Notes under the pieces: model-generated
What the model saw: the letters and a program-made list of their open reading frames with translations, nothing else
Database searches by the model: none
What the model was told of the DNA's origin: nothing
Part shown: positions 724 to 13,844 of the stretch, in pieces
Numbering within the stretch: the stretch's first letter is position 1
Layout of the letters: every line of letters starts with the position of its first letter
DNA from: Pseudomonadota bacterium
GTDB lineage: Bacteria; Desulfobacterota; JAPLJL01
Length of the DNA stretch: 37,382 nt
Direction of reading: 5' to 3'
Assembly: GCA_026388655.1 (NCBI GenBank)
Contig: JAPLJI010000176.1
Span: 1-37,382 of the forward strand
Made by a program: the position numbers and the translations under genes

Positions 724-1917
724 ATGGGTTTGCTCAGATTCGTATTTCTGTTTGTCCAATACCTCGGTTTTTTGATGTTCCTGAAGACCAGCCGGAGAAT
801 CGGGAAACTCGGAAAAGATCGTTCGGAAATTCGTTGGGAAAGGATCATCCGGGAGAATCTTTGTCTAAAATACGAGATTCAGGTCCTCAAGCATAAACTC
901 TCATCCCTCGAAAAACGGCCCCGGTGGATGGCTGGAGAGCGATTGGGGCAGATATTCGTTTACCTTTTCAACCGAGACAATACCGCCTTTCTGAGAAATT
1001 ACCTGCTAACCTCTAAAAGAACCGTGAGAAGATGGATTCAATGGCTGAATCAAAAGGGAATAGGTTCCCTGATTCGTCCACCCTACCCCGGCAGAATTCC
1101 AATATCCCGGGAATTGAGAGAGCTGATCGGAAGGTTAAAAGGTGAAAACCCCCTCTGGGGATCGAAGAGAATCGGGGGAGAGCTTCTTCGCCTGGGAATC
1201 GTCCTTTCGCGGAGCACCATCAGGCGGATCTTGAAAGAAGAAGGACTATGTCCCACTGGACTGATGAGGAAATCCAAATATCAAAACCCCAAGGCCAAAT
1301 ATCCAAACCAGATCTGGAGTATAGATTTCTTCATCCTCAGAATCTTCCATTTGAAAATTCTCTACCTTTTCTTCATTCTCGACGAATACTCCCGCTATTT
1401 TCTCCATTTCTCGGTCTCGATCAAACCTTCTGCTGTTTCCTGCGCTCGGGAGCCGAAAAAAACCATAACAATATTCGGCACCCCCGAAATTATCATCTCC
1501 GACCGAGATTCCCGCTTTAAAGGTGAATTCAGAAAAACCTTGGAACAAATGCGGATAAAGCATCGGAGAATCCCGCCCCGCTGCCCTCTTTTTAATTGCC
1601 GGGCGGAAAGATTTGTCGGATCGGTGAGAAGGGAGCTTCTCAATCACATTCTTCCCTTCAGCCAGAAGGAGACTTTATTTTATCTTTCCGAATATCAACT
1701 CTATTACAACTTTCTCCGCCCCCATCAAGGAATAGACCAGAAAACCCCGGCGGAGATGTACGCCCTTCCTTATCACTCCCCTCCCCATCGAGGGGGGAGG
1801 GCCAGGGTGGGGGTGAATAATCATGAACCTTCACCTTTTCCGTTTCTTCCTAAAATCAACAAAATTAAATTGGCGGGCGGCCTGCTGAATTCTTATTATT
1901 TCAAAAAAGCCGCTTAA
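724..1917 (+). CDS. DDE integrase/transposase of an insertion sequence (IS481/IS3-like integrase core)
   Basis: 397 aa. A hydrophobic N-terminal segment and helix-turn-helix-like region come first. A segment typical of rve transposases follows (GENPLWGSKRIGGELLRLG, then STIRRILKEEG). The integrase core has the acidic triad D201 (in WSIDFF), D260 (in ISDRDSRF) and E295 (in RAERFVGS). The D-E spacing of 34 residues is canonical, so the catalytic core looks intact. RRELLNHI and YYNFLRPHQGIDQKTPAEMY are the usual C-terminal signatures. The family cuts and joins DNA ends during transposition. After PAEMY there is an unusual tail of about 50 residues encoded partly by a GC-rich palindromic repeat (1773-1816). 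The start follows an AGGGGGG ribosome binding site. The gene abuts the eroded end of the Rhs locus. Confidence 0.85.
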   Translation: MGLLRFVFLFVQYLGFLMFLKTSRRIGKLGKDRSEIRWERIIRENLCLKYEIQVLKHKLSSLEKRPRWMAGERLGQIFVYLFNRDNTAFLRNYLLTSKRTVRRWIQWLNQKGIGSLIRPPYPGRIPISRELRELIGRLKGENPLWGSKRIGGELLRLGIVLSRSTIRRILKEEGLCPTGLMRKSKYQNPKAKYPNQIWSIDFFILRIFHLKILYLFFILDEYSRYFLHFSVSIKPSAVSCAREPKKTITIFGTPEIIISDRDSRFKGEFRKTLEQMRIKHRRIPPRCPLFNCRAERFVGSVRRELLNHILPFSQKETLFYLSEYQLYYNFLRPHQGIDQKTPAEMYALPYHSPPHRGGRARVGVNNHEPSPFPFLPKINKIKLAGGLLNSYYFKKAA

Positions 1918-2033
1918 AAATCTCCCTGCTTATAAAAATCTCCCCTCCCTCGATGGGAGCCGACCCCATTTTCTCCCCTCCCTCAGCTTGCCCCGTCAAG
2001 GGCGGGGATGGGAGGGGACTGAGGGGAGGGTGA
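1773..2033. repeat. GC-rich CTCCCCTCC-type palindromic repeats, the first inside the transposase 3' end
   Basis: At 1773-1816, ctccccatcgaggggggag followed by ccagggtgggggtga forms a hairpin inside the transposase C-terminus. At about 1941-2033 two or three further arms of the same kind occur (cctccctcgatgggag; cccctccctcag paired with ctgaggggagg). They belong to the same class as 8203-8242. They are REP/MITE-like by appearance. The part at 1941-2033 could also end transcription of the transposase. Confidence 0.7.
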
Positions 2034-2208
2034 ACTTCCCAGCACGATAGGTAGAAGCTTATCTAAAGGCAGACGTTAAAGTCCAAAATTCAATCTTGAA
2101 ACAACTATTTTTATGGAATTTTATGCAAATTACGGCCGGATTGCTTATCAGATTTTCAAAATTTCTTTTCCGGTCATCCGATCATTCGCTAAAAACTATT
2201 TTGGCCCC
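2034..2208. other. Non-coding junction between IS region and Rhs remnant
   Basis: About 175 bases that I cannot assign. It separates the GC-rich repeat cluster from the stop codon of the Rhs remnant. I found no terminal inverted repeat that would define the end of the insertion sequence. Confidence 0.3.
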
Positions 2209-2418
2209 CTACAAGGTGGTCACGCCAAAGGCGGTCTTCTTCACCCGGCGGCTCTGGGAGTCGTATACATACTGCCCTACTGAATTTCCTTCAACTTTTA
2301 TTTCTTTTAATCGATTATTCACGTCATAAATAAGCGACGTGTTATCCCAGCCCACAATATTTCCATTACCGTCGTAGGCGTAGGTCGTCCCTTCCCGTAT
2401 CGCCGAGGCGATCTTGAT
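2209..2418 (-). pseudogene. Rhs core remnant (truncated cassette start)
   Basis: Translated on the minus strand this gives IKIASAIREGTTYAYDGNGN, a YD-repeat segment, then SQSRRVKKTAFGVTTL and a TAG stop at 2211-2209. It is closely similar to the start of the cassette at 5932 (KIKIAEAMREGTTYAYDGNG, AQSRRVKKTAFNVTTYFIYD). The remnant breaks off just where the intact cassettes continue with the FIYDQF segment, so it is the first 70 codons of a fourth cassette whose core, C-terminal domain and partner are gone. It begins directly after the TGA of the preceding small gene and in the same frame. It has no start codon or ribosome binding site of its own and is probably not translated. Confidence 0.8.
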
Positions 2419-2919
2419 TCACAAATCTTCGATTTTTTCTCTTTCCCATTTATCGATTTTCCAATCTGAACCTTCTTTTATTAAATAAAACCTTATTCGG
2501 GTTTTTTCCTTAAAACCTTCTCCTTCACCTATTGATTCCACAACTGCAATTATCACATTTTCTCCATTTTCTTGAACTTTTTTTATTTTCTGATCATACC
2601 AATGGGTTTCACTGGTTAACCTATAATCTTTGTAAACCTTTGCATTTGTTATCGATATATCCTTACCGGTATTCATATCAGTAACAGTATAAGACTTTAA
2701 TCTTTCTTTAAAATTACTTGAAAGTAATGCGTAGCATTCATCATACTCAACCTTTTCTTCATAATACAAGTATTTTTCAAGAACTTTAGTAGCAATTATT
2801 ATTTCATTTCCACCATTTTCTTTTGTTTTGGCTTTACCATACTGAAGGTTTTTGTTATAGTTACAACATACAACAAATATTATCATTATTACTGAAAGAA
2901 ACGAATTTATTTTCAGCAC
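2419..2919 (-). CDS. Exported NTF2-like small protein, candidate immunity protein of cassette 1
   Basis: 166 aa. The N-terminus (MLKINSFLSVIMIIFVVCCN) is a short basic start plus hydrophobic segment, hence a signal peptide or membrane anchor. Two cysteines end it, but the residues before them do not match a classic lipobox, so a lipoprotein is possible but not certain. The rest (KVLEKYLYYEEKVEYDECYA ... RIRFYLIKEGSDWKIDKWE) has the look of NTF2-like/DUF4878-type exported proteins. A GTG start at 2919 is preceded by GTAGGAG at good spacing, 14 bases after the stop of the Rhs cassette with the peptidase-like end. By analogy with Rhs loci it is likely the immunity partner. An extracytoplasmic location fits a toxin acting on peptidoglycan. 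The role is inferred. Confidence 0.6.
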   Translation of the reverse strand: MLKINSFLSVIMIIFVVCCNYNKNLQYGKAKTKENGGNEIIIATKVLEKYLYYEEKVEYDECYALLSSNFKERLKSYTVTDMNTGKDISITNAKVYKDYRLTSETHWYDQKIKKVQENGENVIIAVVESIGEGEGFKEKTRIRFYLIKEGSDWKIDKWEREKIEDL

Positions 2920-2933
2920 TTTGTTTGCTCCTA

Positions 2934-4145
2934 CTATTTACAAGATTTAACTTCTTTTTTTTCTTCATTCTTTTTACTTTCACCTTCTTTCCGCCATTCT
3001 GGTTCATCCTGAAGTGTTTGACCATTACGTCCGTTCCATTCAGAATCTCTGGTATCTACATGAGTATGGCCTTTATGTTGTTGATCATAAGTGCTTACAC
3101 CATTAAATCCAACCTGCGAAGCCAATTCGGCAGTTTGCTCAGAAGACCATCCAGGAATATAAATATCTGCAGCCTTTCCACCATTGGTTGTGAGATGATA
3201 GCTTCCTGATGCACCCCCAACATCTTCATTCTGTTGAGGTGTCCTATCACCACCAGTTACAATTACATCTCGACTTCCATTCAAAGTATCCAATTCGGTT
3301 AATTTCTGCCTTGTCGTCGAATCAGTAATATTATGATTGCCATAGACAACCTCTAAACCTAAATAATCCCAATGACGTATAGGATTGTTATCAGAGTACA
3401 AATAACTGACTGTACTATACCCAATTGTTACAAGAGGATCTTGAGAAAGATATCTTCCAATTTTAGGACTATAGTATCTATTGATACTGTAATGCAACCC
3501 AGTCTCAGCGTCATAGTACTGCCCAGGGAATCTCAGGTTCTGAGAAATAGTGTTTGGCTCCATGGTCAAAGGCTCTTCCCCAAAGGGACCGTACTGCCAT
3601 GACCAGACCACGTTTTGATTCTGATCCGTCAGCTTGATGGGAGTACCCAAATGATCATTATGATAATAATAGACCACCTCGCCAGTTGTTTGCGCTTGAA
3701 GGCGAGAAGGCTGGAAAGCTAGAAGGCTAATAATAAAAGCCGACCCTAAAAATCCAATTAAAAGAATAAAAGACTTTTTAGAACTTCGGGTAAATTTAAA
3801 AAAGATGACAAAAAGGAAAGGCGATAAAATAAATACATACCCTAAAATCCCTTCCTTCGGGTTCCAGGCGAAGATCGTTCCGCAGCTCCCGCTGACTTGG
3901 CCTGAAATTGTAGGAGGCGGAGCGGAAGAAGGCAACGGCAAATCAATCAGTGCCAGAGCCTGGCCGTTCAGGTAAATATATTCCTTCGTTATATTTCCGC
4001 TTGCATCAGACTCCGCGATTAAATTGCTGAACTGGTCATAGATGGAATAGGTGGTCACGCCGTAGGCAGTTTTCTTCACACGGCGGCCGGAAGCATCATA
4101 AGTATATTCACCCACGGGCTGGCCGTTGACCAACGCCTTCGTCAT
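2934..4145 (-). CDS. Orphan Rhs cassette 1: Rhs core plus M15 peptidase-like C-terminal domain
   Basis: 403 aa. Residues 1-70 are a YD-repeat start nearly identical to cassette 3. Two hydrophobic segments lie at about 100-117 and 125-143. The Rhs-associated core runs about 157-264 (DHLGTP at 165-170, RFPGQYYDAETGLHY, GRYLSQDP) and closes with PIRHWDYLGL (255-264), the PxxxxDPxGL-type boundary of Rhs toxins. The variable end (265-403) resembles zinc D,D-/L,D-carboxypeptidases of the M15/VanY type: TGGDRTPQQN (R301), SYHLTTNGGKAADI (H317, D327) and HKGHTHVDTR (H362), the expected Arg and His/Asp/His ligands. A peptidoglycan-cleaving toxin is therefore likely. There is no convincing ribosome binding site before the ATG at 4145, so it may be a silent cassette that is expressed after recombination with the main gene. 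Confidence 0.8.
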   Translation of the reverse strand: MTKALVNGQPVGEYTYDASGRRVKKTAYGVTTYSIYDQFSNLIAESDASGNITKEYIYLNGQALALIDLPLPSSAPPPTISGQVSGSCGTIFAWNPKEGILGYVFILSPFLFVIFFKFTRSSKKSFILLIGFLGSAFIISLLAFQPSRLQAQTTGEVVYYYHNDHLGTPIKLTDQNQNVVWSWQYGPFGEEPLTMEPNTISQNLRFPGQYYDAETGLHYSINRYYSPKIGRYLSQDPLVTIGYSTVSYLYSDNNPIRHWDYLGLEVVYGNHNITDSTTRQKLTELDTLNGSRDVIVTGGDRTPQQNEDVGGASGSYHLTTNGGKAADIYIPGWSSEQTAELASQVGFNGVSTYDQQHKGHTHVDTRDSEWNGRNGQTLQDEPEWRKEGESKKNEEKKEVKSCK

Positions 4146-4146
4146 C

Positions 4147-4162
4147 CGATTCTGTGAATCGT
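4147..4162. repeat. Inverted repeat at cassette 1 boundary
   Basis: CGATTC-TGT-GAATCG lies immediately before the ATG of cassette 1. The same sequence with one more paired base occurs at 7825-7841 before cassette 3. Similarity between the two cassettes begins at this palindrome and the sequences upstream differ, so it marks a recombination boundary or hotspot. Confidence 0.55.
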
Positions 4163-4163
4163 C

Positions 4164-4260
4164 GCCTCCGGAGAGTGTTAAAAGTTGCTAAATTATCCCA
4201 GCCAATTATAAGCAAGGAATTTTACAATCTTTTAGAATAAAAAATCGAAAATGAAATGTT
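4164..4260. other. Spacer between cassette 1 and the preceding small gene
   Basis: About 100 AT-rich bases. The part near 4164-4200 still encodes a short piece (LLTLSGG) similar to the sequence upstream of cassette 2 (LLTLSGDN), so it is Rhs-derived. A TAG stop interrupts it. No promoter is evident. Confidence 0.4.
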
Positions 4261-4602
4261 TTAATTGAAATGATTTCCAAAAAATGAATTAAGTAGCATC
4301 ATAACATAAAAAGTTATACTTATAAATAAAATTACGATAAATATTGAGATTAAAATTCTTTTGAAAGAAAACTTTTTCTCAGATATTTTACTTCCCAATT
4401 TCTTATTAGTTAGAAAATTACCAATCATTTCAAATAGTAAGAATATTGGTATTCCAATAAAAATTAATACTAACCATCCTATAAAATCTTTAGGAATGTG
4501 AGGATATAAATATAAAATAATAAATAGTAAATAAATAAAAATGAATATAGTAATTCCAATTAAAAGTCTTTTAATCCGTTCTTTTAATGACCCTTTTATC
4601 AT
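4261..4602 (-). CDS. Small integral membrane protein, candidate immunity protein of cassette 2
   Basis: 113 aa from the ATG at 4602; a longer reading from 4647 would overlap the cassette 2 gene. It has a basic start (MIKGSLKERIKRLL) and three strongly hydrophobic segments (around LIGITIFIFIYLLFIILYLY, WLVLIFIGIPIFLLFEMIG and ILISIFIVILFISITFYVMM), so it should sit in the inner membrane. I do not recognise a family. It starts four bases after the TGA of the cassette 2 gene, which suggests translational coupling. Its base composition is far more AT-rich than the flanking genome, a sign of recent acquisition. An integral membrane immunity protein would fit a membrane-active toxin, but this is inference. 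Confidence 0.6.
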   Translation of the reverse strand: MIKGSLKERIKRLLIGITIFIFIYLLFIILYLYPHIPKDFIGWLVLIFIGIPIFLLFEMIGNFLTNKKLGSKISEKKFSFKRILISIFIVILFISITFYVMMLLNSFFGNHFN

Positions 4603-4606
4603 TTTT

Positions 4607-5932
4607 TCAATCGCATGATTTTTGTTCACAAGGTGTAATTGCAGCATTAATTAATGAACCTGCTGCCGCTCCTGCTTCCCATGCAGTACCCATTAAAGCG
4701 AAATTCACAACCCAAGTTCCCCCCGCAACAATTCCTGTTTCCAAACCGGTAAATGTTGCACCACCCATAGAAACACCCTGAAAACCACCTGCCGCCCACT
4801 GCCCAAGAGTAACACTCCCTAAAGCAGAAGAAACATACCCTGATGAATATAAACCTAATCCTGCCGGAGCCAATAATCCTGGAACTGCACTATTTGTAGT
4901 CTTGAAATTTTCCCAAACACGTTGCCAATAAGATTTTTCACACATCAATCCTAATCGATCTATCCAAATAATAGGATTGTTTAAAGCATATCCATATAAA
5001 TCAACGTCTGCTCCTTCGACAATTAAAGGATCAATTTTACATTTTAAAGATAATAAAATAGAATATAAATTCAGCATTTTAATCGGATCCGGGGTGAGAT
5101 ACCTCCCCAGTTTGGGGCTGTAATAGCGGTGGAAATTATAATACAACCCGGTTTCAGCGTCGTAATATTGACCGGGGAATCTTAGATTTTGTGAAATGGT
5201 ATTGGATTCCATCCATGGCGATTCTTCTCCAAACGGCCCATACTGCCACCGCCACACGATATTGATATCGGCGTCGGTCATAACCAAAGGAGTACCAAGA
5301 TGATCCAAATGGAAATAATAGATCTTCTCAGCGCTTTCTTGAGCTCGGACGCTTTCCTCGGTGAAAATAAACGCTGAGCCGAGCACCAGGCACCAGAGCA
5401 CCACGGCACCAGAAAAGGCCAAATAATTCTTTCTCCGGTAAGAGCGGATCAAAATCAAGCCAAAGAAAGGCGATAAAATAAAGAAGAAAAGAATGGCTTG
5501 ATCGCGGGTGGCCCGGCCGAAACCGATAGTTGAACACATCCCGCTGACTTGCTGAGAAATCGTCTGGGGCGGGGCGGAAGAAGGCAAAGGCAGATTAATC
5601 AGAGCCAGTGGCTTGCCATTCATGTAAATATATTCCCTGGTGATATTTCCACTCGCATCAGATTCCGCGATCAAATTGTTGAATTGGTCATAGATGAAGT
5701 AGGTAGTCACGTTAAAGGCGGTCTTTTTCACCCTGCGGCTTTGGGCGTCGTATGAATAAGAAGCAATTTGCAGGGTGCCATCTTCAGGCAAAGGGGAAGT
5801 AACCCCAACAAGACGATTTTGGAAGTCGTATTTGTAATGGATATCATCGGCCGCGATGATGTTCCCATTCCCGTCGTAGGCGTAGGTCGTCCCTTCTCTC
5901 ATCGCCTCGGCGATCTTGATCTTCATCGCCAA
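4607..5932 (-). CDS. Orphan Rhs cassette 2: Rhs core plus Gly/Ala-rich hydrophobic C-terminal domain
   Basis: 441 aa from a TTG at 5932 (ATG alternative at 5926). The open frame actually extends up to a TAG at 6043, reading LLTLSGDNLASFVTKDELGQ, so no real start is evident and the cassette looks like a promoterless fragment. YD repeats occupy 15-85. Hydrophobic segments are at about 146-163 and 171-190, followed by ESVRAQ. The core contains DHLGTP (210-215) and RFPGQYYDAETGLYY, and ends in PIIWIDRLGL (320-329). The last 112 residues (from MCEKSYWQRVWENF) are a Gly/Ala/Ser-rich hydrophobic region ending CEQKSCD. They resemble membrane-inserting or pore-forming domains in composition only. No enzyme motif is visible. 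Its neighbour is a membrane protein, consistent with a toxin/immunity pair. Confidence 0.75.
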   Translation of the reverse strand: MAMKIKIAEAMREGTTYAYDGNGNIIAADDIHYKYDFQNRLVGVTSPLPEDGTLQIASYSYDAQSRRVKKTAFNVTTYFIYDQFNNLIAESDASGNITREYIYMNGKPLALINLPLPSSAPPQTISQQVSGMCSTIGFGRATRDQAILFFFILSPFFGLILIRSYRRKNYLAFSGAVVLWCLVLGSAFIFTEESVRAQESAEKIYYFHLDHLGTPLVMTDADINIVWRWQYGPFGEESPWMESNTISQNLRFPGQYYDAETGLYYNFHRYYSPKLGRYLTPDPIKMLNLYSILLSLKCKIDPLIVEGADVDLYGYALNNPIIWIDRLGLMCEKSYWQRVWENFKTTNSAVPGLLAPAGLGLYSSGYVSSALGSVTLGQWAAGGFQGVSMGGATFTGLETGIVAGGTWVVNFALMGTAWEAGAAAGSLINAAITPCEQKSCD

Positions 5933-6046
5933 TTTTATGAACTGCTTGACCTGCCCCAGCTCATCTTTAGTTACAAAAGAAGCCAGATTATCCCCGGAGA
6001 GGGTTAAAAGCTCCCGTACTATCCCGGCCAGGCTTTCTCGCTATTA

Positions 6047-6625
6047 TCAATCAAGGATGAAATCGACCGATATGACGCGAGGCACGGCTTCATGAGAAAG
6101 GTGAACACCACAAGCATAGTTGCCAAGATTTGGGGTGTTAAAATACAAATCCGTAGGATGTTGCTCGGCGATCTGGAACTCAGACATGATAGCCCGCACT
6201 TCGTTAATGGTTTGTCCCTTCTTTATCGTCTGACACTTGCCGTATAGATACTTTAGCTCATGCGAATCAGAGAAGAAAACGTGTACAGGAGGATAAAAGA
6301 CTTCTAGGTCTATTATCCCAAGTAACACGTGCGGAGAGACTCCAACGACGTAGAAAATAAGTGACAGGCCAAGAAGCCAACCCTCCCAACCTGGCTTGAG
6401 TTTCAATCTCATTCGAAGAAGAAAAACGATGAAGCTCACGCCGGCGAGAAACAGTATGGAGTCTAAGACTATGATAAATATGACAGAGGATCGGGTCACC
6501 TTCGAGAACGGCATGGAGTAATAATGATCGACCCCTACCAAGATGAGAGACGCGAGCACGAACATCGCAATCGCGATCTTGATCACCAAAGGAAGATGTA
6601 TTGGCGTCGATGCCTTGGCCTGCAC
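6047..6625 (-). CDS. Membrane protein with C-terminal soluble domain, candidate immunity protein of cassette 3
   Basis: 192 aa from the GTG at 6625, chosen because GGAGG lies six bases upstream. An upstream in-frame ATG at 6676 would overlap the cassette 3 gene and lacks such a site. It has three hydrophobic segments (around VIKIAIAMFVLASLILVGVD, VIFIIVLDSILFLAGVSFIV and WLLGLSLIFYVVGVSPHVLL) and a roughly 80-residue end containing KCQTIKKGQTINEVRAIMSE, with no recognised family. It begins 22 bases after the stop of cassette 3. Position and topology suggest the immunity partner of the cassette 3 C-terminal domain. The evidence is contextual only. Confidence 0.6.
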   Translation of the reverse strand: MQAKASTPIHLPLVIKIAIAMFVLASLILVGVDHYYSMPFSKVTRSSVIFIIVLDSILFLAGVSFIVFLLRMRLKLKPGWEGWLLGLSLIFYVVGVSPHVLLGIIDLEVFYPPVHVFFSDSHELKYLYGKCQTIKKGQTINEVRAIMSEFQIAEQHPTDLYFNTPNLGNYACGVHLSHEAVPRVISVDFILD

Positions 6626-6647
6626 TGTTAGCCTCCGCCCGAATGCA

Positions 6648-7823
6648 TTAGAAGAAGTACATGAATACCGGACCATAGGCTTGAATGGTATTTAGCATCG
6701 TTTGTCCCGGATTCCGAGTGGTCTGGCCTTCGCTACAAGTCTTCGCGTTCGCGTTCGGATTGATATCGTATTGCGGCAACACATCATTTCCACGAATCCT
6801 ATATGGCGACGAGTTGTAATCAAAGTCGTCTATCGACCCGCCCTTTGGATTCACAAAGTCAACATCCGTGATCTCTTGTCCATCGACGTACACAGGATTC
6901 TCCCAGTTAACCGTCTGCCCTGGTTGAATCCAAAACGTGATTTGCTGATTACCGGACCCTCTTCCAGGACCAGGGTTACCAGAACCCTGCACCGGATATG
7001 GCATATTGTTGGTCACGCTTGCCAGGCCAAGTGGATCCTTCGATTTCACCGGATTGTTCACGGCGTAGGAGTAAGTATTAAAAGGTTGTGGATATCTACT
7101 ATATCTTTTTATAGGATCCGGGGTTAAATACCTCCCCAGTTTCGTGCTGTAGTAGCGATTCATGTTGTAATGCAACCCGGTTTCTGCATCGTAGTACTGT
7201 CCGGGGAAACGAAGATTCTGTGAAATAGCGTTAGGCTCCATCGTCAAAGGTTCCTCGCCAAAGGGCCCGTATTGCCAACTCCAGACCACGTTTTGATTCT
7301 GATCCGTCAGCTTGATTGGAGTGCCGAGGTGATCCACATGATAATAATATATTTCTTCGCCCGTGGTCTGTGCTCGGACGCTGGGAGGCTGGGACGCTAG
7401 GAAGCTAAACACAATAAAAACTCCCAGGCAGCCGAGTAAAATTAAAAATGACTTCTTCGTACTTCTAGTAACTCGGAAGAAAATGGCAAATAAGAAAGGA
7501 GAAAGAATAAAAGCGTAACCAATAATCCCTTCCTGCGGGTTCCAAGCGAAGATCGTCCCGCAGCTCCCGCTGACCTGCTGGGAAATGGTCTGAGGCGGAG
7601 CGGTGGATGGCAAAGGAAGACTAATAAACGCCAAAGGTTTTCCATTTAAATAAATATATTCCCTAGTAATATTGCCAGAAGCGTCAGCTTCCGCGATCAA
7701 ATTGCTGAACTGGTCATAGATGGAATAGGTGGTCACGCCGTAGGCAGTTTTCTTCACACGGCGGCCGGAAGCATCATAAGTATATTCACCCACGGGCTGG
7801 CCGTTGACCAACGCCTTCGTCAT
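6648..7823 (-). CDS. Rhs cassette 3: Rhs core plus unrecognised C-terminal domain (next to main Rhs gene)
   Basis: 391 aa. Residues 1-95 are almost identical to cassette 1. The hydrophobic pair is at about 100-117 and 124-142 and is followed by SVRAQ. DHLGTP is at 164-169, RFPGQYYDAETGLHY and GRYLTPDPI follow, and the boundary is PVKSKDPLGL (258-267), a perfect PxxxxDPxGL motif. The last 124 residues start ASVTNNMPYPVQGSGNPGPG, contain FWIQPGQTVNWENPVYVDG and end AYGPVFMYFF. I do not recognise the fold and see no nuclease or protease motif. The ATG overlaps the stop of the main Rhs gene as ATGA, so translational coupling is possible. It supplies the Rhs-core end that the main gene lacks, so the two may be one gene split by a frame shift or recombination. 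Confidence 0.8.
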   Translation of the reverse strand: MTKALVNGQPVGEYTYDASGRRVKKTAYGVTTYSIYDQFSNLIAEADASGNITREYIYLNGKPLAFISLPLPSTAPPQTISQQVSGSCGTIFAWNPQEGIIGYAFILSPFLFAIFFRVTRSTKKSFLILLGCLGVFIVFSFLASQPPSVRAQTTGEEIYYYHVDHLGTPIKLTDQNQNVVWSWQYGPFGEEPLTMEPNAISQNLRFPGQYYDAETGLHYNMNRYYSTKLGRYLTPDPIKRYSRYPQPFNTYSYAVNNPVKSKDPLGLASVTNNMPYPVQGSGNPGPGRGSGNQQITFWIQPGQTVNWENPVYVDGQEITDVDFVNPKGGSIDDFDYNSSPYRIRGNDVLPQYDINPNANAKTCSEGQTTRNPGQTMLNTIQAYGPVFMYFF

Positions 7824-10800
7824 CCGATTCTGTGAATCGGCACTTTGCCAACAAACTCACCGGCGGTGACCTGAGGAGGGGGCGGGGGAGGGGGACACGG
7901 TTTTCCATGTTCAGGCTTATAGAAACGCCCAGACGGGAGCCTGCAGAGAGGCTCCCCTACATTTGAAGACCCAGACTTAAAAGAGGGAGAAGAAAGCTTA
8001 AGGGCATAAAGTTTGATCTCGATCAGCATTTTGAGATATTTGAGCTGAATCAGAATATCTTCGGGAATCTTATGATGCCATTTGTGGCAGAAGCCATCAA
8101 CCCGATCATGAATATCCGTCCAACCATTTTCATCCAGATCTTCGAAATTATCGGGGACGCTAGGAACGACTCCGACGATTCGTTGCCAATCGGTGGGAAC
8201 CCGCTCACCCTCACCCCTGCCCTCTCCCCTCAAGGGAGAGGGATAAACCCCTGGATTCCCGCTTCCGCGGGAATGACGACCAGGATGGGGAGAGGGAGTA
8301 TTTTTGAAAGAGGGAAAAGAAGGGGAGAAAGCAGGGCTAAAGCCCTGCCCTACATTTTTATGTAAACCAGAAGAACCAGACGAGCCGGGAGAACCACCGG
8401 AATTTGCCGGAGGATCTAAAACCTCTCGGAGGCGGTTGGTGCCGTCGTAGTAGCTGTAGTCGTAGTTCTTGCCGTCGTCTACTTCGGAGATCCGGTTGCC
8501 GGCCAAGTCATAACCAAAATCCAGATCCCCAAGATAAGTACCATCCGCGGAAATCAAGCGATTTAAGGGATCATAACCAAACTGATCGGTTTGCGCAGTA
8601 TTCCCTTGATTCAAATCTTCAAAGGAATCGTATTGATCAAAACCGATAATATTATCCACCGGATCATAACTATAGAATCGTGCCGCCGTTACCTGGGCCA
8701 ACTCTTCACCAGCAAAGGCCCCCACCACAAAAAACCAGGGGTTATAACGGGCGTTGAACCACATCACATATTCCAATCCATTCCCATAAACAAAATGCGT
8801 GGCCTTTCCGGAAAGAAGATTGCCGTCATAGGTAAAATTACTGGCTAAGGTAGTGGAACTGCCATTTAAAGTGGCGTTTACCCCCGAAACCAAACCCGAG
8901 TCATACTGATAATTCACCACCCGGCCGGAGGGGTAGGTAATCGAGCTTACGTTGCCGTTGGCGTCATAAGAATAGCTAAGGGCAAAGGGCAAAGAGCCAA
9001 GGGTCTTATTTTCGTGGGCCAGATTGCCGCGCTGGTCATACGCGTAGCTGGAGGAACCGGATTCATCGGTAACCGTGGAAAGGCGGCCGAGGCCATTAAC
9101 ACCTTGATCGTAGGCGTAGGTCACATCAACGCTGGAAGGCTGGGAAGCTGGAAGGCTGGAAAGCTCAACCAAACGATTAAGAACATCATATGAATAGGTT
9201 GTTTCCTGGCTGTTGGCGTCGAATTTGGCGATCAGATTTCCGGCTTCGTCATATTGGAAGCGGGCTAAACCGGAATCGGGGGAATTGATCTGAACCAATC
9301 TGCCCATGTCGTCATATGAGTAATTAGTCAGGAGTGAGGAGTCGGGAGCGCGGTATGAAGTGACAGAAATGAGATTGTCGTGAGAATCGTACTGGTAAAA
9401 CGCTAGAACGCTGGAAGGCTGGGACGCCGGGACGCCAGAAACCTGAACGAGACGATTTAAAGCATCGTATTCATATGTATTTGCATTACCATTATCATCG
9501 GTAACTGAGGTCCGGTTGCCGTTGGGATCGTAGGCAAATTGGGTATAAGTACCCCAATCGTTATTATAAATACGAAACAAGCGATTATTTTCATCGAAAT
9601 CACGGTCATTAATTCCATCAAGTATCTGATTGCCAAACCAATCATAATCATATTCCACCCACTGGGTTCCGTGGGCGATCCCGAGCAAATGATGGGTATC
9701 ATCCTCATACTGATAATCAATAGTTTCGCCGTTAGGCTGGGTTACCCGTTTGATCGAGCCCAAACCATCCAGGGCATATTGAGTAACCAGGTCGTCTTCT
9801 CCCGAAGGCCCTGCTTCTTTCTGGGTGCTTGAAATCAAGCGGCCCCGGAAATCATATCCGTTCAGAGTCACCCGCCCGTTCGGGTCGGTGATTTTGGTGG
9901 GATTGCCGAAAAGTTTGTAATCATCATATCGGGTAATCCCGCCGGTGGGATCGGCCACGGTTTTCAAACGACCCCGGTTATACCCCTGATCGGGAGAATC
10001 CGAGTAATAAGCAAAGCTGGTGACGTCGGCGACATCCGTCCGGGGGCCGTCAATCGAGACCAACCTCTTGACGCCCGTTCCCATCGACGCATTGGAAGCC
10101 ACGTCCACCCGCCCTTCGGCCGGATCAACATAAGTCAACGGACCGAATTTGCCGTCGCCCACGCCGGGGAAATATTCAATCCCATAATACGATGCCGAGG
10201 CGACGATATCCAAAGCACCGTCGCCGTTAAAATCCATTGTCGCGCCATATCCAATCCCATAATCGCCGGAGGACCCTTCACTATAAGGGTTGGTATCATA
10301 ACCGTATTCGTAACTCCAAGGATCCGCGCAACTAAGACCGATTAAATTAAAATTACCGTTACCATCTCCTAAAAATAAATAAGATTGACCAGCATCATTA
10401 TCGTGAGTCTGGCCGGCCAGCACATCCGTATTGCCATCCCCGTTAAAATCACCCGCGATTACAGCCACGATTTCATGATATCCTCCAAAAGCCGGGCAAC
10501 CGGGTATGCCGGCGCATGAATAAGTGGGGAAATTACCCGCGCCGTCACCGAACATAACGCAAAAAAACCCGCCATAATAACCCAACACCAGATCCAGATA
10601 TTCATCATTATTAAAATAGCCCGATTTTAATTGGGTTGGGACATAACTGGGATTAGGGGGCGAGAAAAATCCCTTCTCTAAGAACTGGATTTCACCGTTT
10701 ATCACACCCAGATTCTCCAGAATGACGATCTGCGGACCGAAAGCGGAGGTCTTAATGGCTATATCCGGAAGATGATTCGGGTCATTGATAAAATCTCCGA

Positions 10801-13561
10801 AATCCCCGGCCGCACCCGTGGCTCCCCAATAATAATCGTTGCTCATAGAAAAACCGGAGGCGATAATCTTCGTAGTAAAATTCAGATTTCCATCGTTTTG
10901 AAGAAGATAAACCTCACTTGTCCCCGTAAGCGCGATATCGAAATTTCCATCCTGGTTATAATCCGCCACCATAGGATAAGGAATCGGGATTCCAAGATTA
11001 GCTACCCATAGTTTGCTGCCGAAGTTTCCGTCGAGCAAATACGGTATCAACCATATGTCACCGTTCAAATCGGATAAAACAATGTTATTCGATTGAAGGT
11101 TTGTCTCACTGCTTTCATAGAAATAACGCGTAACGTAAGTGTAATGGTCGATTTGTCCGGAAGAATTATAAGTAAAACCCTTTTCGATCATTTTGTGGAG
11201 ATAATTTGTCGGCGTCTGATTAAAATCGGTCGGATTGTCGGTTGGATAAGGATCAACAGCCGAGGAGGGGTCGTCATAATCGTAAATGGTGATCTTCTTC
11301 GTTCCGGAAAGACCGAGAACGCTATCCTTAATTATGTAAAGCGGGGTATTCAAAACCGGGTGATAGGCAGAAAAGGTTTCATGACCCAGGGCGTCAATAA
11401 TTTTTCCAGGATTCCCACGGTCATCATAATCCTGGTAATGTGTCTCGTTGCCGTTTTTATCGGTAAATTTTGTCCGATTGAGATTGTTTTCTGAAGAATC
11501 CCATTCGGAGGCACTGCTCCCGCCGCAGCCGCAATCCCCTTCTATCCAAGTCGAAACTCCATACTCGTTATAGTGAACTTTATAAGGCTCTTTTCCTCCT
11601 ACATCCTGAACATAAGCTTGAATTTGTGTATATTGCGACTCCGGATAATAATTAAATCGTAATATTTCCCACCCTCTGCGTAAGCTCTCAACTCTATCCA
11701 AACTATCATAACCTATACTTTGGTAACTCAAAATACTCCCTGAAGAATCTTCTTCGGAAATTCCGGTCAGATTGTGAATATCACCGTAGTAATCATCATA
11801 GAAATAATTAATAAAAGAATTGTCGGGATATGCCACATGTATTAGATTATTCGCTTCATCATACTGGTAAGTGACCAAAACTTCATCGTCAGGTCCAACA
11901 ATCTCGGATATTTTTCCGTTTAAATAGCTCAATTGCACTGCAATATTACCTGACCTTATTTTTGAAATTTGACTTTCCGAGTTATAATCAAATTCCAGGA
12001 TTCCTCCCGCCGGGTTCGTAATTTTATTTAATTTTCCCAAGTCATTGAAAAAATATATCTGCCCATCCGGATTTATCAGACTCCATTCTGTTTGAATTCG
12101 GTTTAGTTTATAATTTAAACCTCTCGGAGGAAAATACCCGCCTTGACCATCGGGGGTGAAATAAAGTCCCTTGCCTCCGCCAAGCAATACTTTAATACTT
12201 TCGTCAGGGAGATTAATTAAAAAAATGTTGTAGCTATATGTCCAGCCGAATCCGATTGGACCATCATAAATCTTTTGGGAATTATAAAACCTGGAGAAAT
12301 TTATATCCATCAAGTCACTCTTAATAAAGAAATCCTGCAATGGATGTGTATAATAATTTCCTGTAACAATATTTACAGGATCTTCTCCTTGGCCTATTCC
12401 ACAGTCTTTTATGTTTTGGTCCTGTTGATCATCCGTATCATTGCAGCCTTCATCAATAAAATTGTTACAATTGTCATCAACTCCATTACATGCTTCGGTA
12501 ATATTTATGTCGTCAACAATGCCATTACAATTATCATCCACATTATTGCATAATTCGGGCAGGGGCGTCTGCTCGCCTTCGCATGGATCATACTCTCGAC
12601 AAACATTCTTCGTTCCACCATGGCATATTCCAGTATTTTCAGTGCCAGAAGGACCATCATAACAATTAACAAGATCTATAATCCCATCGCAGTTATTATC
12701 AATACCATCACATTGTTCCGCAGCCCCAGGATGTGCACTTGAATTGTAATCATTACAATCACCTTCACATGGGGACCATCCATCGCAATCATAATCATAG
12801 GTATTGCTGCCGCAACCATCCGCGTAAAATACGTAATTATCAGTGTAACAATGATAATTACCAAATACTTCACCGTCAGCCAAGCTTAAACTAAAATTGA
12901 ATTCATCCCATTTTTCTTCCCCATTGGAATCATGATATTTTGTTTTAATAACGAATTCCAACGTAGCACTGCCTCCCGTTGCCTGCACGGTAGGGATAAA
13001 GAAAGGTAGATAATAGTTGCCATATCCCGGTGAATACCATCTGAGAAAAGAACCACCCTCACCCGGCTCCAGCAAATGATCGGATAATTCCGAGTAAGGA
13101 TCATAAAACCAAATACGATAATATGCTGGCTTAAAATGTATTGAATAAATCCATACGCTTCCTAAACTAGAAGGAGAGTTCGTGATTGAAACATAATGAG
13201 ATCCATCTTCTGAATACAATGGATTACACGAACAAATCGAACTACTATTTAACATTACATCTTTAACGTTCATATTAAAATCACTTCCAGCCTGGACAAG
13301 CTCGGAACCTGCCTCGACTAATTTCGTCTGCACGGGACCGGATGCCAAACTCTCGGCAAACAAATGAGAAGAGAAAAAAACATAAATGAGAAACAAGCAC
13401 CCTAATCCGCCGAATACTCTTCGGACAGAGCGAGCAATGAATAAAAAACCGCTGGAAGGTAAAATATTTCGATCTGCAGCAAATGAATGCCCCATCAGAA
13501 GAGATTTTCTGATGAAAGAAGACCTAAAAGGGCTTTTCCAAAAAGCTTTTTCCGGTTTCAT
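7820..13561 (-). CDS. Main Rhs-family protein with MopE-like, FG-GAP/VCBS and YD repeats
   Basis: About 1,913 aa from the ATG at 13561 (AAGGGGG five bases upstream; a GTG lies at 13567). The order is: a long basic N-terminus, a signal/anchor helix near 50-70 (VFGGLGCLFLIYVFFSSHLF), and Cys/Asp-rich MopE-like repeats at about 256-382 (DNNCDGIID, DDNCNGIVD, DDNCNNFID). An Rhs N-terminal domain at about 400-560 follows (NIVTGNYYTHPLQDFF, RFYNSQKIYDGPIGFGWTYS), then YD repeats to about 820. An FG-GAP/VCBS block lies at about 826-1156 (DYNQDGNFDIAL, DFNGDGNTDVLAG, DFNGDGALDIVAS), then YD repeats again to about 1711. The tail (about 1720-1915) includes translated genomic repeats, a calcium-binding-like DLDENGWTDIHD and a proline run. 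There is no Rhs-core end in frame; the next gene supplies it. Likely a large secreted shell protein delivering a C-terminal toxin, or a surface polysaccharide-binding protein. Confidence 0.85.
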   Translation of the reverse strand: MKPEKAFWKSPFRSSFIRKSLLMGHSFAADRNILPSSGFLFIARSVRRVFGGLGCLFLIYVFFSSHLFAESLASGPVQTKLVEAGSELVQAGSDFNMNVKDVMLNSSSICSCNPLYSEDGSHYVSITNSPSSLGSVWIYSIHFKPAYYRIWFYDPYSELSDHLLEPGEGGSFLRWYSPGYGNYYLPFFIPTVQATGGSATLEFVIKTKYHDSNGEEKWDEFNFSLSLADGEVFGNYHCYTDNYVFYADGCGSNTYDYDCDGWSPCEGDCNDYNSSAHPGAAEQCDGIDNNCDGIIDLVNCYDGPSGTENTGICHGGTKNVCREYDPCEGEQTPLPELCNNVDDNCNGIVDDINITEACNGVDDNCNNFIDEGCNDTDDQQDQNIKDCGIGQGEDPVNIVTGNYYTHPLQDFFIKSDLMDINFSRFYNSQKIYDGPIGFGWTYSYNIFLINLPDESIKVLLGGGKGLYFTPDGQGGYFPPRGLNYKLNRIQTEWSLINPDGQIYFFNDLGKLNKITNPAGGILEFDYNSESQISKIRSGNIAVQLSYLNGKISEIVGPDDEVLVTYQYDEANNLIHVAYPDNSFINYFYDDYYGDIHNLTGISEEDSSGSILSYQSIGYDSLDRVESLRRGWEILRFNYYPESQYTQIQAYVQDVGGKEPYKVHYNEYGVSTWIEGDCGCGGSSASEWDSSENNLNRTKFTDKNGNETHYQDYDDRGNPGKIIDALGHETFSAYHPVLNTPLYIIKDSVLGLSGTKKITIYDYDDPSSAVDPYPTDNPTDFNQTPTNYLHKMIEKGFTYNSSGQIDHYTYVTRYFYESSETNLQSNNIVLSDLNGDIWLIPYLLDGNFGSKLWVANLGIPIPYPMVADYNQDGNFDIALTGTSEVYLLQNDGNLNFTTKIIASGFSMSNDYYWGATGAAGDFGDFINDPNHLPDIAIKTSAFGPQIVILENLGVINGEIQFLEKGFFSPPNPSYVPTQLKSGYFNNDEYLDLVLGYYGGFFCVMFGDGAGNFPTYSCAGIPGCPAFGGYHEIVAVIAGDFNGDGNTDVLAGQTHDNDAGQSYLFLGDGNGNFNLIGLSCADPWSYEYGYDTNPYSEGSSGDYGIGYGATMDFNGDGALDIVASASYYGIEYFPGVGDGKFGPLTYVDPAEGRVDVASNASMGTGVKRLVSIDGPRTDVADVTSFAYYSDSPDQGYNRGRLKTVADPTGGITRYDDYKLFGNPTKITDPNGRVTLNGYDFRGRLISSTQKEAGPSGEDDLVTQYALDGLGSIKRVTQPNGETIDYQYEDDTHHLLGIAHGTQWVEYDYDWFGNQILDGINDRDFDENNRLFRIYNNDWGTYTQFAYDPNGNRTSVTDDNGNANTYEYDALNRLVQVSGVPASQPSSVLAFYQYDSHDNLISVTSYRAPDSSLLTNYSYDDMGRLVQINSPDSGLARFQYDEAGNLIAKFDANSQETTYSYDVLNRLVELSSLPASQPSSVDVTYAYDQGVNGLGRLSTVTDESGSSSYAYDQRGNLAHENKTLGSLPFALSYSYDANGNVSSITYPSGRVVNYQYDSGLVSGVNATLNGSSTTLASNFTYDGNLLSGKATHFVYGNGLEYVMWFNARYNPWFFVVGAFAGEELAQVTAARFYSYDPVDNIIGFDQYDSFEDLNQGNTAQTDQFGYDPLNRLISADGTYLGDLDFGYDLAGNRISEVDDGKNYDYSYYDGTNRLREVLDPPANSGGSPGSSGSSGLHKNVGQGFSPAFSPSFPSFKNTPSPHPGRHSRGSGNPGVYPSPLRGEGRGEGERVPTDWQRIVGVVPSVPDNFEDLDENGWTDIHDRVDGFCHKWHHKIPEDILIQLKYLKMLIEIKLYALKLSSPSFKSGSSNVGEPLCRLPSGRFYKPEHGKPCPPPPPPPQVTAGEFVGKVPIHRIG
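7825..7841. repeat. Inverted repeat at main Rhs / cassette 3 junction
   Basis: CCGATTC-TGT-GAATCGG, a perfect 7-bp inverted repeat directly beside the ATGA overlap. Sequence shared with cassette 1 starts here, and the main gene reads the shared bases in another frame (HRIG then stop, instead of SQNRMTKAL). Confidence 0.6.
7935..7960. repeat. Palindromic GGGAGCC...GGCTCCC(CTAC) repeat inside main Rhs gene
   Basis: gggagcc and ggctccc arms flank a short loop, ending in ctac. The same palindrome type occurs between genes at 17397-17422. Here it is translated as part of NVGEPLCRLPSG in the Rhs tail. Confidence 0.7.
8203..8242. repeat. CCTCACCC / CCCTCTCCCCTCAAGGGAGAGGG palindromic repeat inside main Rhs gene
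   Basis: The hairpin ccctctcccctc-aagggagaggg preceded by ctcaccctcacccc is of the same class as 1773-2033. It is read in frame as PLRGEGRGEGERV. Confidence 0.7.
8251..8277. repeat. Palindromic GATTCCCGC-GCGGGAAT repeat inside main Rhs gene
   Basis: A 27-base unit starting ctggattcccgc and ending gcgggaatgac. It is identical base for base with the intergenic copy at 17466-17492 and related to 13784-13811. It is translated in frame as RHSRGSGNPGV. Confidence 0.85.
8331..8354. repeat. GCAGGGCTAAAGCCCTGC palindrome inside main Rhs gene
   Basis: A perfect inverted repeat gcagggct-aa-agccctgc followed by cctaca. It is translated in frame as NVGQGFSPA. It is one of four different palindromes stacked in the Rhs C-terminal tail. 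Confidence 0.75.
9131..9165. repeat. GCTGGAAGGCTGG low-complexity repeat within YD repeats
   Basis: A tandem-like gctggaaggctgggaagctgg stretch. Related stretches lie at 9402-9438, 7378-7405 and 3697-3730, all in Rhs genes. In the main gene both copies are read in the same frame and give (V/L)PASQPSSV. Confidence 0.6.
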
Positions 13562-13567
13562 CCCCAC

Positions 13568-13844
13568 CCCCTTGGTAAGAAATTTTTCGGAATTTAGATA
13601 ATTTTTTTACACCAGAAGGTATTTAATGTCAAGAAATATTTTATGGCATTTGCATGAAATTTTTATAGTGACTTCAACATATCAATATGACTGAAAAATT
13701 TAGCAATAAAGGTAAAAATTTGGCTATTTAAATATCGGGAATTCTTGAAGATCTTTTTTCAGGAGAATAACGGAAAAATGATTCTGGATTCCGGGTCAAG
13801 CCCGGAATGACATAAAAAAGTGAAGGAAATTATTATGAAGTACG
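13568..13844. other. Rhs upstream region with an interspersed palindrome
   Basis: An AT-rich region of about 275 bases between the TRAP DctM gene end and the Rhs start. It should hold the Rhs promoter. A palindrome (ctggattccggg...cccggaatgac) at 13784-13811 belongs to the same repeat class as 8251-8277 and may also act as a hairpin upstream of the Rhs transcript. I see no other structure. Confidence 0.45.
13784..13811. repeat. GATTCCGGG-CCCGGAAT interspersed palindrome
   Basis: attccggg and cccggaat arms around tcaag, with the same ctgga/atgac borders as the copies at 8251 and 17466 but a different stem. Confidence 0.7.

Follow-up and report, generated by a model that had tools for sequence, protein, structure and literature searches.

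The window analysed here, a stretch of DNA of 37,382 nucleotides, very probably carries a polymorphic-toxin locus: a promoter-bearing, Sec-exported Rhs gene (main plus c1), followed by displaced modules (c2, c3 and a remnant, c4) with presumed envelope toxins and presumed immunity proteins. It appears to be an Rhs orphan CT/immunity array of a kind already described. As we read it, the displaced orphans are c2, c3 and c4 only, while c1 appears to be the main gene's own tail, broken off from it. In this assembly the weapon looks disabled; the immunity genes look still usable.

Anatomy of the locus

Contig C88, one of 194 in a genome that is 94% complete, makes up the window. All parts of the locus are on the minus strand, the main open reading frame first, then c1, c2 and c3 with their small genes. 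The features, with their flank, are these.

13604..13632 (-): promoter-like TTGACA-N17-TAAAAA, 5' of the main ORF, read by eye
7820..13561 (-): main Rhs ORF, core excluded (ORF calling, Pfam)
13358..13426 (-): hydrophobic segment resembling a Sec-type signal peptide (hydropathy)
7824..7840 (-): putative deletion and frame-break junction; 7-bp perfect inverted repeat CCGATTC-ACA-GAATCGG, overlapping the c1 head
7023..7823 (-): c1 core, including a two-helix hydrophobic hairpin, RFPGQYYDAETG and PVKSKDPLGL (RHS 6e-13, Rhs_assc_core 1e-22, hydropathy)
6648..7022 (-): CT1, 124 aa, a domain in the toxin position
6047..6625 (-): Im1, membrane protein with hydrophobic helices, presumed CT1 immunity (RBS GGAGG before GTG 6625)
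4946..6030, start approximate (-): c2 orphan core, which keeps the most upstream sequence (from LAGIVRELLTLSGDN... on; RHS 1e-12)
4607..4945 (-): CT2, 112 aa, Gly/Ala-rich, presumed membrane-acting toxin (47% identical to the Rhs tail of genome G340)
4261..4647 (-): Im2, three-helix membrane protein, 20% G+C, presumed CT2 immunity (overlaps the CT2 end)
3354..4204 (-): c3 orphan core (RHS 4e-13)
2934..3353 (-): CT3, 139 aa, M15-type zinc peptidoglycan peptidase domain (Peptidase_M15_3 1.7e-11)
2419..2919 (-): Im3, lipoprotein-like, N-terminus VLKINSFLSVIMIIFVVCC, presumed periplasmic CT3 immunity (RBS AGGAG, GTG 2919)
2214..2418 (-): c4, truncated fourth core start (KIASAIREGTTYAYDGNGN...VKKTAFGVTT; 87% nucleotide identity to c2, in two pieces)
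1939..2213 (no strand given): dispersed repeat; copies on contigs C148 and C2 end at the same base as 2213
724..1917 (+): transposase/integrase (rve domain 2.6e-14)

The main ORF matches RHS_repeat (3e-56), DUF6531 (7e-12), MopE (2e-11) and FG-GAP_3 (9e-10) and contains nine RHS repeats; with Pfam and NCBIfam profiles neither PF03527 nor Rhs_assc_core was found in it, and it terminates at the head of c1, which lies in a different frame. A ribosome-binding site, AAGGGGG, precedes its ATG at 13561 (alternative start, GTG 13567). The promoter-like element escaped our promoter scan because its -10 lacks the final T. Hydropathy of the protein is maximal at residues 49-63, with Arg before. Equivalent signal-like segments occur in both Rhs proteins of G002, a genome of the same genus, and thus at the N-termini of 3/3 Rhs proteins. 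Near its end (8340-8210) the main ORF encodes an in-frame palindromic repeat-like stretch (SPHPGRHSRGSGNPG...SPLRGEGRGEGE), and a similar insert is present in one G002 Rhs gene.

The earlier note had described three repeated cores with unrelated ends and different small genes, and this description holds. The direct repeats D1-D3 are the three core copies, at 7823-7023, ~6030-4946 and 4145-3354. Each contains the YD start, a hydrophobic pair, DHLGTP, the RFPGQYYDAETG segment and PxxxxDxLGL, the last in the versions PVKSKDPLGL (c1), PIIWIDRLGL (c2) and PIRHWDYLGL (c3), the second Pro being gone in c2 and c3. In the profile search Rhs_assc_core matches the copies at E values of 1e-19 to 1e-23, far beyond chance. 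The tails that follow (124, 112 and 139 aa) are mutually unrelated, and a different small gene lies behind each. The truncated fourth start beside a transposase was likewise recovered: c4 begins at the stop codon of Im3, the dispersed repeat cuts it off at 2213, and the rve-domain gene is its neighbour. Tens of partial copies of the dispersed repeat family are present in the genome, with a sharp end at 2213.

How well does this anatomy agree with the described classes? RHS/YD repeats followed by an Rhs-associated core, the mark of an Rhs/YD polymorphic toxin, are present, in two frames at main/c1. A conserved core end with a variable C-terminal domain is found in c1, c2 and c3. The description of an orphan array (partial cores without start signals, each with its own CT and partner) fits c2, c3 and c4; it fits c1 only partly, c1 being contiguous with main. 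An intact full-length main gene, usual in such arrays although not strictly defining, is absent here, main and core lying in different frames. The orphan CT/immunity logic invoked in the earlier note stands, and the anatomy matches published arrays (PMC3150448, PMC2935791, PMC3967940).

Could the cassettes instead be independent, complete genes with their own promoters, members of a paralogous family? In favour of this, none of the three open frames is interrupted, and the cores have a dN/dS of 0.11-0.18. But inspection of the upstream sequence gave no convincing ribosome-binding site at the orphan heads, no signal peptide was seen at the cassette heads, and the promoter-like matches of the scan are not concentrated there. 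Moreover, the heads of c2, c3 and c4 correspond to different internal points of one ancestral gene, and the intact G002 genes reach about 1,450 to 1,900 residues further upstream than the cassettes. We regard independent genes as scarcely credible. That the cassettes lack good start signals had been noted before and is upheld for the orphan heads; Im1 and Im3, on the other hand, do have ribosome-binding sites.

The break between the main gene and c1

If c1 is the tail of the main gene, why does it stand in another frame? The main ORF reads ...QVTAGEFVGKVPIHRIG-stop, and the core resumes in the other frame as DSQNRMTKALVNGQPV.... Both full-length G002 Rhs genes are uninterrupted here, from N-terminus through core to tail, with ~90 more residues. 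The BLAST pieces are separated by 274 nt in G002 and by 3 nt in the window, a net loss of ~271 nt, and therefore a frame shift between main and c1. Since the G002 counterparts are continuous and ~90 codons longer, main and c1 appear to be one Rhs gene broken by a ~271-nt deletion. The frame break may reflect degeneration or assembly. Of the inverted repeat at the junction, a 15-nt core (CGATTC-ACA-GAATCG) recurs at the c3 head (4147-4161) and nowhere else in the window; c1 and c3 share one breakpoint at this same repeat.

The stop of main and the ATG of c1 overlap as ATGA (7823-7820). Might ribosomes restart on c1, so that a split gene still works by way of two proteins? We consider this very unlikely. 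The overlap lacks a ribosome-binding site and the RNA at the junction folds in no unusual way (z = -0.2); some 90 conserved codons have been lost, the c1 half would have no signal peptide, and the same ATG heads the orphan c3, into which no gene reads. A programmed frameshift or RNA element at the junction was rejected on the same folding result.

A sub-variant of our preferred explanation deserves more weight, being possible though not probable. Here c1 would itself be an orphan, and a larger deletion would have removed the native tail and its immunity gene, fusing main to c1 out of frame. The finding that c1 and c3 start at exactly the same core base, like modules with a common head, would be explained, and there is a precedent in Yersinia pestis Microtus 91001, where a deletion fused an orphan onto cdiA (PMC3150448). 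Against this, one internal deletion of 271 nt relative to G002 is enough, and the window holds no proof that a tail was lost. Either way c1 sits in the place of the main gene's own core and tail, and of the three displaced cassettes claimed in the earlier note only two (c2 and c3) survive, c1 being the main gene's own or fused tail, frame-broken.

Divergence of the cores

In the nucleotide alignment of the cores that the earlier note had proposed, c1 and c3 are 79% identical overall and c1 and c2 69%. The heads of c1 and c3 share a 141-nt identical tract, the rest being about 74% identical. Its statement that the same core is repeated, with unrelated ends, is thus borne out for the ends, but the cores are not near-identical save for this tract. 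At the amino acid level core identity is 54-76%, and synonymous sites are near saturation. The c2 core is homologous to G002 Rhs (57% over 369 aa).

Have the orphan cores been decaying neutrally in place? The c1-c3 dS is 1.6, and no simulated frame stays open at such a dS under neutral drift. Neutral decay in place was rejected, as the frames would have closed. Since they are open despite this dS, the cores would have diverged inside expressed genes and been orphaned later. Probably, then, the array was fed from diverged Rhs genes.

The 141-nt tract bears on an assembly artefact, in which the tract was mis-resolved and the choice of tail behind the main gene, or even the frame break, may be unreal. 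The source is a fragmented metagenome-assembled genome (194 contigs), the tract is identical between copies otherwise only about 74% alike, and both copies end at the same right breakpoint. However, the intact G002 locus shows the same kind of identical-then-decaying tract, so that such tracts arise without misassembly, and an overlap assembly would presumably need reads across the main/c1 junction. We hold an artefact to be unlikely.

Relatives of the locus

In G002 an intact Rhs gene ends in a Tlde1 tail; an immunity-like gene comes next, and behind it lies an orphan core that has a Tlde1 tail of its own. The small genes after the Tlde1 tails are signal-bearing or membrane genes. The orphan core starts a few nucleotides past the preceding stop. 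Its first 199 nt match the main core without a difference; from there toward the CT the identity falls off. This is an independent parallel of the same layout, and c1/c3 show the same identical-then-decaying signature. Compared with the two G002 Rhs genes, G2a and G2b, our locus is a mosaic: the main N-terminus is nearest G2b (52%), while the tail and the cores are nearest G2a (54-58%).

Tandem cores occur in four more genomes of the same phylum (G015, G007, G055 and G040). Finding such a locus in this genome type is thus nothing unusual. In G015 (L034) we observed seven core matches within about 13 kb, a tandem array longer than that of the window. G340, of another family, carries a CT2-like tail on its Rhs. 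Upstream of that tail the G340 Rhs has a frame change in the YD region (L055 2858-2877), and an orphan core remnant lies behind.

Tails and partner genes

What might the tails do? CT3 is the only one with a recognised enzymatic family. Aligned with the muramoyl-pentapeptide carboxypeptidase 1LBU, it keeps the H...D...H pattern of what we take to be the zinc-binding residues (His, Asp and His ligands) of that enzyme. A lipoprotein-like Im3 behind CT3 fits, because a peptidoglycan target would be periplasmic.

A profile search of 395 same-phylum genomes with the CT2 pair gave, beyond the window, only G340 as a convincing match, with two weak matches (E about 6e-4 to 8e-4); tblastn found no match in plasmids. 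CT2 perhaps acts on the membrane, a guess from its composition and its membrane-protein partner. Im2 has a homologue in G001, of the same genus (39% over 82 aa, at a contig edge). In G340 the CT2 homologue is followed by a membrane gene with no detectable relationship to Im2.

CT1 matched no Pfam or NCBIfam profile, nor any plasmid sequence by tblastn. Structure models of CT1 (pLDDT 32) and CT2 (pLDDT 34) were uninformative. Neither CT1 nor Im1 nor Im3 has recognisable relatives in the 395 same-phylum genomes; the roles given to them consequently follow from position. G+C falls to 20% in Im2 and 29% in Im3, against 57% in the flank.

A proposed history of the array

How might the array have arisen? 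Incoming core-CT-immunity segments from diverged Rhs genes would recombine into the shared core, pushing older tails downstream as displaced modules, of which there would be at least two (c2 and c3); we infer both this displacement and its direction. The main gene would then have been split from its tail c1 by the deletion that breaks the frame. We presume that the CTs are antibacterial toxins directed at the cell envelope, with peptidoglycan as the substrate of CT3 and the membrane perhaps as the target of CT2; the orphan toxins would be silent. The small genes would be immunity proteins, two of them (Im1 and Im3) with usable start signals.

The word 'reservoir', by which the earlier note meant that orphans can recombine onto the main gene, finds weak support in the assembled sequence. 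The c1 head lies downstream of the break, and c2 begins only past the point at which the main ORF ceases to match, so that we see no homologous stretch by which a local orphan could be joined to main in frame. A graveyard for toxins, possibly a live store of immunity genes, is the description that fits better.

Export and the hydrophobic hairpin

If the main protein is exported, how would its toxin be delivered? The T6SS sheath gene VipB (PF05943), the one T6SS family searched, was found in none of G000, G001 and G002 (genomes 82-94% complete), while the E. coli control was positive. We count the lack of a sheath gene in these genomes as evidence against our reading.

In every core of the genus a pair of hydrophobic helices precedes DHLGTP, and the turn contains four or five Arg/Lys residues. 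Outside the genus the pair is missing: the alignments of relatives skip that part of the query. At the hairpin position, upstream of DHLGTP, two gammaproteobacterial relatives (L025 and L026) have, by eye, a dockerin-like segment. This suggests that the hairpin site is an insertion-tolerant point of the core. Hypothetically, a Sec-inserted hairpin would leave both of its flanks in the periplasm. We offer, as a rather doubtful proposal, that in a lineage that would lack a T6SS a Sec-exported Rhs protein carries a membrane hairpin with an Arg/Lys-rich turn, which would place the closing core and the toxin in the donor periplasm or aid insertion into the target membrane, the wall- or membrane-directed tails being exchangeable. 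If true, this would be an envelope-targeted mode of Rhs delivery not yet described. The shared hairpin would in any case be a clue to how Sec-exported Rhs toxins get to the envelope when there is no injection machine.

Comparison with known systems

The modules of Dickeya dadantii and Salmonella Typhimurium (PMC3150448, PMC3967940) likewise consist of start-less core fragments behind a main rhs gene, each with its own CT and partner and with core homology for recombination. Orphan modules without start signals have been functional when tested, and a CDI orphan immunity gene is expressed (PMC3150448); recombination between main gene and orphan has been demonstrated in Salmonella (PMC3967940). 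In Salmonella, however, main and orphan are 95% identical over 522 bp, with a full-length main gene, whereas our main gene is frame-broken and the cores are 54-76% identical in amino acids.

Tip displacement in Serratia marcescens and at E. coli clade IV rhs (PMC2935791) also leaves strings of partial cores that vary in length and carry unrelated tips; these arrays lie in a low-G+C trough behind the rhs gene and include frameshifted members. In those arrays all cores of a locus belong to one clade and are nearly identical; ours are old and divergent, with one short identical tract linking them, and this far greater divergence counts against the orphan-array reading.

WapA-type Sec-exported Rhs/YD toxins, as outlined in PMC12704120, and bacterial teneurin-like proteins (PMC13018210) share with the present protein a signal, a YD shell and a polymorphic C-terminus, without an obvious injection machine. 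Set against these two, our locus differs in the core hairpin of all genus members and in the orphan array. Peptidoglycan-directed tails like those of Tlde1 (PF10908) and M15 effectors sit on Rhs cores of the genus (CT3; both tails of one G002 locus), but here their carriers are Rhs proteins of genomes that yielded no T6SS sheath gene.

With this locus, orphan Rhs CT/immunity arrays now reach a lineage in which no T6SS sheath was detected. A delivery gene that looks broken beside intact immunity-like genes bears on whether orphans are spare weapons or stores of immunity.
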